Shown here piece by piece: positions 2,752 to 26,678 of a stretch of 33,036 nt of DNA. How positions within the stretch are numbered: position 1 is the stretch's first letter; the number at the start of each line of letters is the position of its first letter. The translations under genes and the position numbers were made by a program. The DNA is taken from positions 1-33,036 of the forward strand of contig CASFMW010000022.1 in NCBI GenBank assembly GCA_949295935.1, in the 5' to 3' direction. Under the pieces are notes generated by a model. It saw only the letters and a list, made by a program, of their open reading frames with translations. It was not told the origin of the DNA and made no database searches. The DNA is from an uncultured Pseudomonadota bacterium (lineage in GTDB: Bacteria; Pseudomonadota; Alphaproteobacteria; RF32; CAG-239).

Positions 2752-2757
2752 TATAGC

Positions 2758-3025
2758 TATACCGCAGAAATGGTTGTTTTTGCGGTAGTACCTGAGAAGG
2801 TACGGAGCTGTCGAAAGCTCTTTATATGATGCGGTGTTGGATATACATCGTTAAAGTATTATATATCCCCTCGATTATGTGACGCGTCCATGGTCGGGGA
2901 GCCTTAGACATATGTTCAGAAGAGAACTGGAACTTTATGTTTTGTTGTGCTTTAAAAGTCTAAGGAATCATTTCATCATATGTGATTTTCGAACTCTCCG
3001 ACCACCTTCTTATGGTGGTTTTTTT
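2758..3025 (+). ncRNA. Structured RNA of about 270 nt, independent small RNA or attenuating leader
   Basis: The stretch holds a dense series of helices. They are: 10 bp (2761-2770 with 2777-2786, one G-U); GTACC/GGTAC (2788-2792, 2799-2803); GAGCT/AGCTC (2805-2809, 2816-2820); a helix GATGCG/CGCGTC (2828-2833, 2883-2888) enclosing GGATATA/TATATCC (2839-2845, 2862-2868); and a 10-bp helix (2892-2901 with 2994-3003) enclosing CCTTAGAC/GTCTAAGG. It ends in an intrinsic terminator. No good ORF occupies it. It lacks the signatures of RNase P RNA, SRP RNA and tmRNA; a divergent 6S RNA is possible but not shown. Bases 3001-3003 belong both to the last helix and to the terminator stem, as in riboswitch platforms. 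Confidence 0.6.
3001..3025 (+). terminator. Intrinsic terminator just upstream of the orphan gene
   Basis: The stem ACCACC/GGTGGT (3001-3006 with 3014-3019, 7-nt loop) is followed by a U run to 3025. It ends 26 nt before the ATG at 3052, and the ribosome binding site lies between them. It can close the small RNA, or act as a conditional terminator in the leader of the 672-residue gene. Confidence 0.8.
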
Positions 3026-3051
3026 GGCCGTGCATAAAAAGGAGAGAAACG

Positions 3052-5070
3052 ATGAGTACACAAGAAGAAAAAGAATTACTTCAGAAGGCTTTGGAATTAT
3101 ATAGTGCTGAAAGTGAAAATCCACGAGGTTCTTACCATAGAGCTATATGGGACATCAGAAAACTTGGAGAACATCTTTATCAATATAATACAGGTTATGA
3201 ATATAAAGATGGTTCGCTAAAAGATAAGAGTTGTAATATTGCATGGTTTGAAAAAGGTAAACTTACCCAATTAGAAACAAGACCTTTTAATGTAGGTTTC
3301 GATGAGATTTATATAGATATGGGTAACAATGTTTATGCTAGTGCATATGAGGGTTCATCTTTTCCCAAGCGTGGTCAATTGGTACATATAACGTCTAAAG
3401 GAATAGAAACTATAAAACGAGATTTAACCAATTTGTCGGAAGAAGATTTCTTAAGATTATATGAGGAACTGGCTAATAGTCGTGAATATGAAGATATGGT
3501 AAAAGAGAGAACATTTGATTTCAGTGGAAAATGGGGTGATTCTGTAAAATTATTGCCACAACGCTTAGCTAAGCAAAAAGAGCTTTTGGACGATAATGAT
3601 AATTATTATTGGTATTTGCGTCCTACACAGAAAGATAAAAGCGAACTTATCAAAATTATTAACAAAAGTTTTGGTGAATCAACGTTTGATGAAAGTCATT
3701 TGGAAGATTTTAAAGGAAAATCTCTGCAAGATATAAAAATTTCAGAACAACAAGCAGAATTAGCCGCAGAAGCTTATGGTTCTTCACATCTTTCAGGTTT
3801 GCTTCAAGTTGCTGTTGAAGCTCCAAAGACGCCGGCAGTTGAATTAATTGCTAATAAGTATCGTGAACATTATAAATCTGAACTTGTTAATGGGATTATT
3901 GACAGAGCGGATGAAATTGTAAAACTTCCGTATAAGCAAATGTTTTTCAACCAGCTTAATGGAGATAATGCAAATGCGCCAGAAGCAAATTTCTTAGATG
4001 AATTTACAGACAGAATTAGAAGTCTGGCTATGAATAAATATGGACAAGAAGATTGGTACACAAGCATTTCCGAAGCTGCAAAAGATCCGGAATTTATGAA
4101 AGATACGGATAACGTATGGAATAAAATGTTTGAAGATGTTGATAAATATGCTGTTTATAAGCCTAATAGTCATAATAATGCCTATATTCGTCAGCTGTTT
4201 CCGAAAAAAGTAATCCAATTGCATAAATATGTAACGCAGCAAAAAGCGAATAATTTTTATCAAGTTTTAGATGATACTATAAAGTATTATCAACAAGTTG
4301 GAAAAATGGAAAGGACAATACAAGAATATAATAAAGATAATGAAACATATCTTCATGGTAATTTACATTTTGATTTGGTAGATGCCGGAATAGAGAGTAA
4401 AAGAGATGCAAAACGCTGTTTAGATATCTGGGTTGCTTCAAATGAACGTCCTGATGCATATGGGTCACCGTACAATGAATACAGTATAAAAGAAATTGCT
4501 GCGATATCTAAAAGTAAGGTTATGCAAGATTGGATGTATCCGGTAATGATGGATGCAATTGAAAAGGGCGGTTTAACCTTATCTGAAGGACGTATGCCGA
4601 GCGAAAGAACTTTATTTGATTGCTGCAAAGCATGGAAAATTAATCCTGCAATGCCTCAAAGATTAGCTAAATTCGTCGGAACTCATAGCTTACGAGGAAG
4701 AATGCTTGCTGGCTCAATCTTCGCAATGATGAGTAAGGAAGGAAATACTACGGAACAAGAATGGAGAGATAATAAAAATTTGCATGAAAAATTTTATGAA
4801 GAATTATCTCGAGCTGAAAAGATGTCTATAACAAAAGCTTTTAAGCAATATCTTCCGAATTCGGCTATTAATCGTAAACGTTTTGTTGGTATGGCAATGG
4901 AAGAAAGAGGGATAGAAAATACTCCCGAAAACTTTAAGAAATTGTATGGAGAGTTACGTAAAGAAGGAATCTTTGATACAATGCTTGCCAAGCCAACAAA
5001 GGAGAAAACAGAATTTTCATCACGGTTAATGGTTGAAGCGGCAAGAAGAAAATTTGGTAAAAGTAAATAA
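3052..5070 (+). CDS. Orphan 672-residue protein, unknown function
   Basis: I do not recognise this protein. It is soluble-looking, rich in Lys, Glu, Asn and Tyr, with no signal peptide or membrane segment, and appears mostly helical after about residue 180. The N-terminal part (about 40-145) looks more like mixed beta structure. The start is supported by AAGGAGAG 8 nt before the ATG. A terminator closes the gene at 5121-5157, so it is a single-gene unit. Codon use differs from its neighbours: AGA and ATA are common here but scarce in htpG or groEL, and the gene is visibly more AT-rich, suggesting transfer or a lineage-specific accessory gene. No transposase, nuclease or phage motif was found. 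The structured RNA upstream may control it or be an unrelated neighbour. Confidence 0.85.
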   Translation: MSTQEEKELLQKALELYSAESENPRGSYHRAIWDIRKLGEHLYQYNTGYEYKDGSLKDKSCNIAWFEKGKLTQLETRPFNVGFDEIYIDMGNNVYASAYEGSSFPKRGQLVHITSKGIETIKRDLTNLSEEDFLRLYEELANSREYEDMVKERTFDFSGKWGDSVKLLPQRLAKQKELLDDNDNYYWYLRPTQKDKSELIKIINKSFGESTFDESHLEDFKGKSLQDIKISEQQAELAAEAYGSSHLSGLLQVAVEAPKTPAVELIANKYREHYKSELVNGIIDRADEIVKLPYKQMFFNQLNGDNANAPEANFLDEFTDRIRSLAMNKYGQEDWYTSISEAAKDPEFMKDTDNVWNKMFEDVDKYAVYKPNSHNNAYIRQLFPKKVIQLHKYVTQQKANNFYQVLDDTIKYYQQVGKMERTIQEYNKDNETYLHGNLHFDLVDAGIESKRDAKRCLDIWVASNERPDAYGSPYNEYSIKEIAAISKSKVMQDWMYPVMMDAIEKGGLTLSEGRMPSERTLFDCCKAWKINPAMPQRLAKFVGTHSLRGRMLAGSIFAMMSKEGNTTEQEWRDNKNLHEKFYEELSRAEKMSITKAFKQYLPNSAINRKRFVGMAMEERGIENTPENFKKLYGELRKEGIFDTMLAKPTKEKTEFSSRLMVEAARRKFGKSK

Positions 5071-8982: not shown

Positions 8983-9657
8983 ATGATTTATATTGTGCTT
9001 GGTTTTTTATGGGGGCTATGTATTCCTTATTTATCACGTCGGTTTGGTAAGTTTATGCCGGCGTCGCCCGCTTTTGCGCTTTATAGTCTGTTTATGCCGC
9101 TGAAAAAGGTTTCCGCTCCGCAAAAGAACAAAGTCTATTTGGCTTTGCGACGTGCTTTGCGTTATCGGGCTTTTATGTATGGGCTGTTTTCAGCCGCAGT
9201 GACTTTTGCTTTGCTCTATGTTTATGGAGCGGAACATTTGCTATGGTATTTGGCTTTTGCTTGGGCAGCGCTTTTTTTATTTGAGATTGATGTGCGTTGG
9301 TTCATTTTGCCGGATCTTATTACTTTTCCTTTGCTAATTTTGGGGGTAGGTTGTGCTTATTTTGCAGGCGTCCCTGTAACTGTCGAACAAGCCTTTTTCG
9401 GTGCGGTGGTTGGCTTTGTTTTGCCGGTAATCGCTTCTTTGCCTTTTGCTGCCAAATATCCTGATGCGCTGGGGGGCGGTGATGTTAAATTTTTATCCGT
9501 TGTCGGTGCGTGGCTCGGCGTGGAAAAAATGCTTTACACTATTGTGCTTTCGTGTATTTTATTTACAATATATGCAGTCATTAAACGCCAGCGAGAAGGA
9601 GCTTATGGACCGGCGATTGCTTTGGCGGCTCTGATTATGCTGCTTTGGCGTTTTTAA
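8983..9657 (+). CDS. Prepilin peptidase (type IV leader peptidase, A24 family)
   Basis: This is a membrane aspartic peptidase that cleaves the leader of type IV prepilin-like proteins at the inner membrane. The two catalytic aspartates are D103 in FEIDVRW and D167 in the GGGD motif; the LPDLITFPLLILG and YGPAIALAA segments are also family hallmarks. At least six hydrophobic segments are visible. At 224 residues it lacks the zinc-binding CxxC cytosolic loop that accompanies methylation in the long PilD form, so methyltransferase activity is uncertain. The start has GGAG 7 nt upstream. It lies 28 nt before the ion channel gene and probably shares its transcript. No pilin genes are present in this window, so the substrate is unknown. 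Confidence 0.88.
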   Translation: MIYIVLGFLWGLCIPYLSRRFGKFMPASPAFALYSLFMPLKKVSAPQKNKVYLALRRALRYRAFMYGLFSAAVTFALLYVYGAEHLLWYLAFAWAALFLFEIDVRWFILPDLITFPLLILGVGCAYFAGVPVTVEQAFFGAVVGFVLPVIASLPFAAKYPDALGGGDVKFLSVVGAWLGVEKMLYTIVLSCILFTIYAVIKRQREGAYGPAIALAALIMLLWRF

Positions 9658-26281: not shown

Positions 26282-26678
26282 GCTTTAGGTCCTTTTCAGC
26301 GAATCCGTGAGGAAGCAGCTCGGCTAAAGACAGCGTTTGCTTGATGCCGCTTTTGTCGGCTAAAAAAATGGTGGTGTTTTCATCAGAAAATTCTTGTATT
26401 CTTTGAAGGCAGGCGCCACAGGGTTTGATTAAGTCTTTTCCTTCAGCTAAAATCAGAATCGCTTTTATTTTTTTTCCGCCGCCGGTTATCATCGCTCCTA
26501 TTGCATTTTGTTCAGCGCAACTGCCGCAGGGATAAGATACGTTTTCAACATTGCAACCGGTGTAAATGTTGCCGTCGGTTGACAATATGGCCGCGCCAAC
26601 ATAGAAGTTTGAGTAAGGGGCGTAGGCTCTTTCAAAGCCTGTTAATGCCGCTTGGTGCAGTTCTTTTATTTTATCCAT
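26274..26678 (-). CDS. cdd: Cytidine deaminase
   Basis: It deaminates cytidine and deoxycytidine to uridine and deoxyuridine, feeding the phosphorylase downstream. The zinc site is the small-tetramer type: SCAEQNAI (C54, catalytic E56) and PCGAC (C87, C90), with FYVGAAI and GCNVENVSY forming the substrate pocket. At 134 residues it is a typical T-CDA. AAGGAG about 8 nt before the ATG is the best ribosome binding site in this operon, fitting its place as the first gene. It is divergent from the AsmA gene. Confidence 0.96.
   Translation of the reverse strand: MDKIKELHQAALTGFERAYAPYSNFYVGAAILSTDGNIYTGCNVENVSYPCGSCAEQNAIGAMITGGGKKIKAILILAEGKDLIKPCGACLQRIQEFSDENTTIFLADKSGIKQTLSLAELLPHGFAEKDLKHD

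Follow-up and report, generated by a model that had tools for sequence, protein, structure and literature searches.

Between the ORFs 2253–2537 and 3052–5070, both on the + strand of the 33,036-nt stretch of DNA analysed here (the window), lies a segment whose identity is the question of this study: is it a dedicated RNA, and if so of what kind? A preliminary description had placed there an undescribed structured RNA of about 270 nt, at 2758–3025, and these coordinates proved accurate, as the RNA and its terminator span about 2758–3026 (~270 nt). The successive strong helices then proposed are present: the sequence 2755–3030 folds with an energy of −98.9 kcal/mol, against a mean of −68.0 (SD 4.9) for shuffled sequences (z = −6.3; 0 of 200 shuffles as good), and the window copy displays P0, P1, P2, P3, P4, P6, P7 and a terminator hairpin (3001–3019) followed by T7. 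No ORF of 60 aa or more was found in the ORF list on the + strand inside the element, in agreement with the same description. The features are as follows.

2723–2754, + strand: promoter-like TTTACT (2723–2728) and TTATTAATAT (2745–2754), judged from sequence alone
2759–2787, + strand: P0 hairpin ATACCGCAGAAA..TTTTTGCGGTA, variable in sequence, kept as a hairpin in the nearest relatives
2788–2803, + strand: P1 hairpin GTACC..GGTAC, whose loop and 3′ arm (GAGAAGGT) could pair with the 5′ arm and loop of the terminator (ACCTTCTT)
2805–2820, + strand: P2 hairpin GAGC(TGTCGAAA)GCTC, with a loop that forms pseudoknot PK-A; paired at 99–100% in each of two alignments, both strands carrying changes
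2811–2816, + strand: PK-A 5′ strand TCGAAA, partner of TTTCGA 2987–2992
2824–2831, + strand: P3 5′ strand ATATGATG, partner of CATCATAT (2974–2981), closing the central domain
2833–2849, + strand: P4 hairpin GGTGTT(GGATAT)ACATC, with a loop that forms pseudoknot PK-B
2839–2845, + strand: PK-B 5′ strand GGATATA, partner of TATATCC 2862–2868
2867–2899, + strand: P6 hairpin CCCCTCGATTATG..CATGGTCGGGG, its 3′ strand shared with P10
2892–2901, + strand: switching strand GGTCGGGGAG, pairing upstream in P6 or downstream with CTCTCCGACC in P10
2902–2965, + strand: P7/P8 arm CCTTAGAC..GTCTAAGG, with the internal loop TATGTTCAGAAG (2911–2922) / CTTTAAAAG (2950–2958), the most conserved unpaired sequence of the RNA class
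2966–2987, + strand: P9 AATCAT..GTGATT, whose loop contains the P3 3′ strand (2974–2981)
2987–2992, + strand: PK-A 3′ strand TTTCGA, covarying with its partner TCGAAA 2811–2816
2994–3003, + strand: P10 3′ strand CTCTCCGACC, ending in 3 nt that double as the terminator stem base
3001–3026, + strand: intrinsic terminator ACCACC(TTCTTAT)GGTGGT with T-run
3039–3044, + strand: Shine-Dalgarno-like AAGGAG, before start codon 3052
3052–5070, + strand: downstream ORF of 672 aa, the presumed regulated gene

The intrinsic terminator of the preliminary description, a hairpin with its T-run, is therefore where it had been seen, and its candidate promoter stands as a promoter-like sequence, with similar letters and spacing recurring 5′ of P1 in the nearest relatives (L002–L005 and L019). 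The terminator ends 26 nt before the start of the co-oriented ORF, whose start codon at 3052 is part of the system. The 672-aa product matched no Pfam or NCBIfam family, and part of it recurs 3′ of copies L010 and L002. Genes near the window copy encode TypA/BipA, PfkB and an HtpG-like protein. A strong terminator-like hairpin (AAGCAAAGGCTTAATTTC..GAAATTAAGCCTTTGCTTTTTT) also follows the small upstream ORF 2253–2537, at 2538–2590.

No match over the whole window reached an Rfam gathering threshold (Rfam 15), the element region gave only chance matches at E ≤ 10, and ARAGORN reported neither tRNA nor tmRNA; these searches rule out 6S, tmRNA, SRP, RNase P and any other Rfam 15 family. The earlier exclusion of RNase P, SRP, tmRNA and Rfam riboswitches is thereby confirmed, and the known-family match named at the time as a refutation is absent. 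One tmRNA match, at locus L061, adjoins an element copy and does not lie on top of it. As far as its main text goes, a human-microbiome structured-RNA survey (PMC8040213) contains nothing on this RNA.

The window RNA is one copy of a large repeat family. Searches with blastn recovered several copies per genome in 37 related genomes; their ends are conserved, and the middle varies. Two covariance models were built separately: R1 from 17 gut-family copies, the window copy being left out, and R2 from 56 GC-rich copies (GC fraction ≥ 0.53), none of them from the family set. Both match the window copy, R2 with 51.0 bits (E = 2.5e-9); because R2 was built without family copies and yet finds this copy, together with the other three of the window genome (four copies in all), it gives independent support for homology. 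R1 identified copies in 70 of the 82 genomes of the window genome's family, covering 14 of 16 genera, and three genomes contain at least 87, 73 and 61 copies. In the first of these (G042, 1.6 Mb; L076–L083), most of the sampled copies precede paralogous type IV pilin-like genes (SGRSMIEMLGVLAIIGVLSVGGIAGYSKA). Two tandem copies about 640 nt apart (L086, 9476–9650 and 10119–10289, G003:C1) stand before an XRE-type gene; the second has an altered 5′ half, and the pair looks like a recent duplication. In L013, L015 and L016 the 3′ domain is kept and the P4/PK-B half is lost or replaced.

Beyond the family, R1 matched 30 of 385 genomes of the class, from many families, and R2 matched 42 of 289 (about one in seven Alphaproteobacteria sampled), as well as other members of the phylum (Proteobacteria) and 2 of 119 genomes of the Granulicella phylum; none of 149 genomes of an unrelated phylum was matched by R2. 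The exact core pattern GGTCGGGGAG N10 ATGTNCAG occurs in more than 119 stretches of GTDB species genomes, and R1 matches 74 of 80 among the core-pattern loci listed. The R1-matched loci listed include Agrobacterium vitis (chromosome and pTi), Rhizobium, Methylobacterium, Microvirga, Paracoccus and Rickettsiales, along with gut and rumen alphaproteobacterial MAGs, Granulicella and other Acidobacteria, and two Verrucomicrobia MAGs. The RNA is also present in 26 places on viral contigs and on 177 plasmids.

Comparison of these copies shows that the element is conserved and that its helices covary, as the preliminary description had anticipated for a real RNA. The recurring elements are P1, P2, PK-A, P3, P4, PK-B, P6, P7/P8, P9 and P10, PK-A joining the P2 loop to the strand just before P10 and PK-B the P4 loop to the strand before P6. 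The alignment of 17 gut-family copies has 54 pairs, which are formed in 95.8% of cells, and 28 of them have changed on both strands (covariation score 0.458 vs. 0.193 when shuffled); the 56 GC-rich copies are 90.7% paired, with 502 double-changed cells vs. 173 in shuffles (score 0.505 vs. 0.187). The relatedness of the copies makes shuffling a weaker null; sliding the partner by one column, a control that preserves relatedness, makes the score collapse in both alignments. Many pairs occur as three or four pair types. PK-A is paired in 100% of both the 17 and the 56 sequences, with double changes in four and three of its six pairs, respectively, and one of its pairs is found in CG, AU, GC and UA versions. 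P3 has double changes in seven of eight pairs in the gut-family alignment. PK-B is nearly invariant in the gut family (GGAUAU/AUAUCC, with one GAATATA/TATATTC in L005) and reads GGTGYC/GRCACC in GC-rich copies, where all six pairs show double changes and 74% of cells are paired. Likewise, P9 is nearly invariant in the gut family and varies in GC-rich copies with pairing kept in 87% of cells. P1 occurs as GTACC/GGTAC, GCACC/GGTGC, GAACC/GGTTC and ATACC/GGTAT. In the minimum free energy fold of the window RNA, the P2 5′ strand is instead paired with a CTCC close to the 3′ end; the alignments favour P2 with PK-A over this pairing, and the complementarity to CTCC, which is conserved, could represent a third state.

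In 36 of 37 family copies the gene that follows has the same orientation as the RNA (the other one could not be assigned), and the preceding gene is of mixed orientation (24+/11−). Tests based on the longest ORF in other copy sets gave weaker co-orientation (19/26, 53/70, and 18/26), partly on account of spurious long ORFs in GC-rich DNA. In four different plasmids, the start codon lies 220–225 nt after the start of the match. The downstream proteins are diverse: among 100 of them, Pfam identified outer-membrane barrels (8), HTH_3 (5), surface antigen (5), glycosyltransferase 2 (4), Opacity (4) and OmpA (4) domains, as well as pilins, PD-(D/E)XK, GmrSD, DUF4268 and DprA-like proteins, and PADLOC a type IIG and a type II restriction enzyme. 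On annotated plasmids the RNA precedes traM, HTH and hypothetical genes, and outside Alphaproteobacteria the next genes resemble, by eye, phage antirepressors. Copies before such antirepressor-like genes are seen in L311, L312, L313 and L333, and on pSinA the gene immediately after the copy (L255, 3011–3521) is traM, which encodes the antiactivator of quorum sensing in Ti-type plasmids. The window itself encodes a type IV prepilin peptidase (PF01478) at 8983–9657, pilin genes being frequent partners of the RNA elsewhere.

A purely defence-linked RNA was discarded, since PADLOC places restriction or candidate-defence proteins behind just a few of the 100 copies, and its recurrent RmrA/HTH matches are in all likelihood HTH regulators. 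Retrons, type III toxin–antitoxin systems and put-like antiterminators were considered because of the order RNA–terminator–gene; the downstream proteins are mutually unrelated.

We regard a cis-acting leader RNA working as a transcription attenuator as the probable function. Because copies lie immediately 5′ of a co-oriented gene, a cis leader fits better than an independent sRNA, the early idea; of the dedicated RNA proposed in the preliminary description, the structure, a promoter-like region of its own and the terminator remain, and the free-standing character probably does not. The RNA would be transcribed from its own promoter (TTTACT/TTATTAATAT) and fold into a pseudoknotted core made of P2/PK-A, P3, P4/PK-B and P7 with its invariant TATGTTCAG/TTTAAA loop. 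P6 and P10 both use GGTCGGGG, so that the two pairings would be mutually exclusive. With GGTCGGGGAG retained in P6, terminator 3001–3026 would form, the gene would be off and a short RNA would accumulate; with GGTCGGGGAG and CTCTCCGACC paired in P10, the base of the terminator stem would be occupied and read-through into ORF 3052 favoured, which is how we infer P6 to be the off and P10 the on state. A signal would set the balance between them, most likely in the form of a ligand bound by the core at or near the invariant TATGTNCAG/YTAAAG loop, and the window copy would control the 672-aa gene.

Several observations bear on this scheme. The 10-bp P10 is 98.9% paired in 56 copies, with five pairs changed on both sides (0 of 500 shuffles), and P6 shows only one-sided changes in the same 56-copy alignment. 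A hairpin followed by a T-run is found after all 37 family copies, compared with 143 of 740 random positions. As P10 overlaps the base of the terminator stem by only 3 nt, its antiterminator role would be partial unless P1 helps, and pairing of P1 with the terminator arm, for which GAGAAGGT and ACCTTCTT of the window copy are complementary, may promote read-through: complementarity between P1 loop and platform is higher within copies than when the copies are shuffled (p = 0.011, n = 37; p = 0.0005, n = 89; p values without correction for the relatedness of copies). Predicted energies, −81.4 kcal/mol for terminator plus P6 and −74.6 for P10, with pseudoknots outside the scoring, put the terminator state ahead by roughly 7 kcal/mol or more. 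Termination before the gene is documented in a relative, Brt1 of Bartonella, which forms an abundant RNA ahead of a silent gene (PMC5387305) and whose 3′ stem-loop, when deleted, gives way to high trp1 transcription (reviewed in PMC8070961). Many GC-rich copies and most viral ones have a hairpin without a T-run and would thus have to act on translation or another step. In many GC-rich copies a further hairpin, TTGCGGGGGCGTACCGCAA, precedes the start codon, with a loop GCGTA complementary to the P1 loop TACGC; copies with an ACGT loop carry GACGTACC there.

That the sensed signal is a small molecule is a tentative proposal, to which we give slightly less than an even chance, and the downstream genes are too diverse for a ligand to be named from them. 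The attenuator might instead sense a protein, temperature, translation or another RNA, a less probable version which overlaps the attenuator reading, so that the two confidences do not add up to one. In favour of this version, a protein might bind the invariant TATGTNCAG/YTAAAG loop, and the downstream genes share no theme of ligand biosynthesis or transport; against it, large cores with several pseudoknots are typical of aptamers, the core is kept in several phyla, and a gfp reporter behind brt1 was reportedly brighter at low heme, with no response to temperature or pH (PMC8070961).

It is rather improbable that the RNA is mainly a trans-acting sRNA that carries a promoter and terminator of its own, before a gene that is incidental or only co-inherited. 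Relatives offer precedents, as sRNA-Xcc1 was published as a trans-acting sRNA, according to its title as cited in PMC12189769, and antisense knockdown of Brt1 increased badA, apparently with no read-through into trp1, the authors suggesting that Brt1 acts in trans (PMC5387305); the window copy, too, would be expected to yield an abundant short terminated RNA. But the orientation and spacing of the downstream gene are conserved although the genes are unrelated, the copies in one genome differ in most exposed loops, unlike RNAs with one shared antisense target, and many GC-rich copies have no T-run. Far less credible still is a mobile or recombination element, similar to an integron attC site or a transposon end, in which the structure would be a DNA fold: the element does occur on plasmids, viral contigs and, as sRNA-Xcc1, in integron cassettes, with up to at least 87 copies per genome, but many pairs are kept through G–U, which requires RNA, and its site is 5′ of genes, with a terminator and Shine-Dalgarno sequence downstream. 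The divergent alphaproteobacterial 6S RNA (RF00013) that the preliminary description held as the main known alternative shares with the element its length class, long stems and host group, has no sequence or structure match in the window, and is practically untenable given that a genome of the same genus has a normal 6S match (L022, 253–409) separate from its element copy (L022, 1401–1604) and that the element is multi-copy, pseudoknotted and arranged with a terminator and a gene.

The RNA is a new branch of a barely recognized superfamily, of which sRNA-Xcc1 and the Bartonella Brt RNAs are, to judge by shared motifs and model matches, members. RF02221 (sRNA-Xcc1) is homologous to the 3′ domain of the class, from the P6 3′ strand to P10: RF02221 and R2 overlap in 13 places in six genomes, over 69–84 nt and in the same register, and four sub-threshold RF02221 matches fall at the 3′ end of GC-rich copies. 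Upstream of RF02221 members above the cut-off, P2, PK-A and P3 can be read by eye outside the Rfam model, which ends before the 5′ half that the window copy has. In Xanthomonas integron cassettes, sRNA-Xcc1 lies upstream of symE (PMC12444791), and is thus located before a gene like the window class. The window branch differs by its long P8 arm, its P6/P10 sequence and its intrinsic terminator. The window copy has no match to RF02221 (cut-off 53 bits) even at E ≤ 10 and is consequently filed as a separate branch of the superfamily, not as sRNA-Xcc1. Two sub-threshold sRNA-Xcc1-like places exist elsewhere in the window genome (L330, 1950–2034, − strand, and L331, 1002–1074, + strand; G000:C30 and C11), with RF02221 scores of 34.5 and 38.8; P2 and PK-A are readable by eye in both, and one precedes a lipoprotein-like gene.

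The Bartonella Brt1–9 RNAs are 194–203 nt long, highly transcribed and each placed before a silent HTH gene; they were called genus-specific, one being on a B. grahamii plasmid (PMC5387305). R1 matches this plasmid, pBGR3, where predicted (26502–26648; 29.1 bits, E = 1e-6), immediately 5′ of an HTH gene; P2, PK-A, P3, the P7 core loop, P6 and P10 can each be made out there, P6 and P10 having changed jointly (CCCGGAATTCCGGG; CCGGGAG/CTCCCGG). Homology to Brt is judged on this pBGR3 copy, taken as the Brt counted in PMC5387305. The same plasmid carries a second element, which is sRNA-Xcc1-like (L259, 25880–25967, − strand). Brt RNAs and the window class are alike in being multi-copy, with a terminator-like 3′ end and a downstream HTH gene, as for window genome copy L315, which precedes an XRE-type gene; Brt RNAs are shorter than the window RNA, whose own downstream gene is not of the HTH (Trp) type and encodes the 672-aa protein without a Pfam match. 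The novelty claimed in the preliminary description is thus qualified: distant relatives had already been described, whereas neither the sRNA-Xcc1 nor the Brt description covers the window branch, the full structure or the range. As a whole, the preliminary interpretation is partly supported. An integron sRNA of Xanthomonas and an adhesin-controlling family of Bartonella, published separately, are branches of one leader RNA that ranges over Alphaproteobacteria, some other Proteobacteria, Acidobacteria and Verrucomicrobia. Rfam covers only an 87-nt stretch of one branch, which leaves most copies unannotated; the full structure makes the switch, the pseudoknots and the platform directly testable.

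A further close parallel is with transcription-terminating riboswitches, which also have a conserved core, a strand common to two exclusive helices, variable expression platforms and a terminator before the Shine-Dalgarno sequence and start codon. The window class has a structured domain supported by covariation and, as complementarity, a platform of mutually exclusive helices before a gene. Unlike in terminating riboswitches, the downstream genes share no pathway, and the copy number is far above that of usual classes. The shared core predicts a common signal for pilins, a quorum-sensing antiactivator, phage antirepressor-like genes and restriction enzymes, and it is conceivable, though we would not yet bet on it, that these RNAs form a widespread mobile riboswitch class, unrecognized as such, with a two-pseudoknot aptamer-like core. 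If so, plasmids, phages and chromosomes would bring genes for surface proteins, antirepressors, regulators and restriction enzymes under a single common signal, and in some gut Alphaproteobacteria a riboswitch class would have expanded to 60–90 or more copies before variable pilin-type genes.
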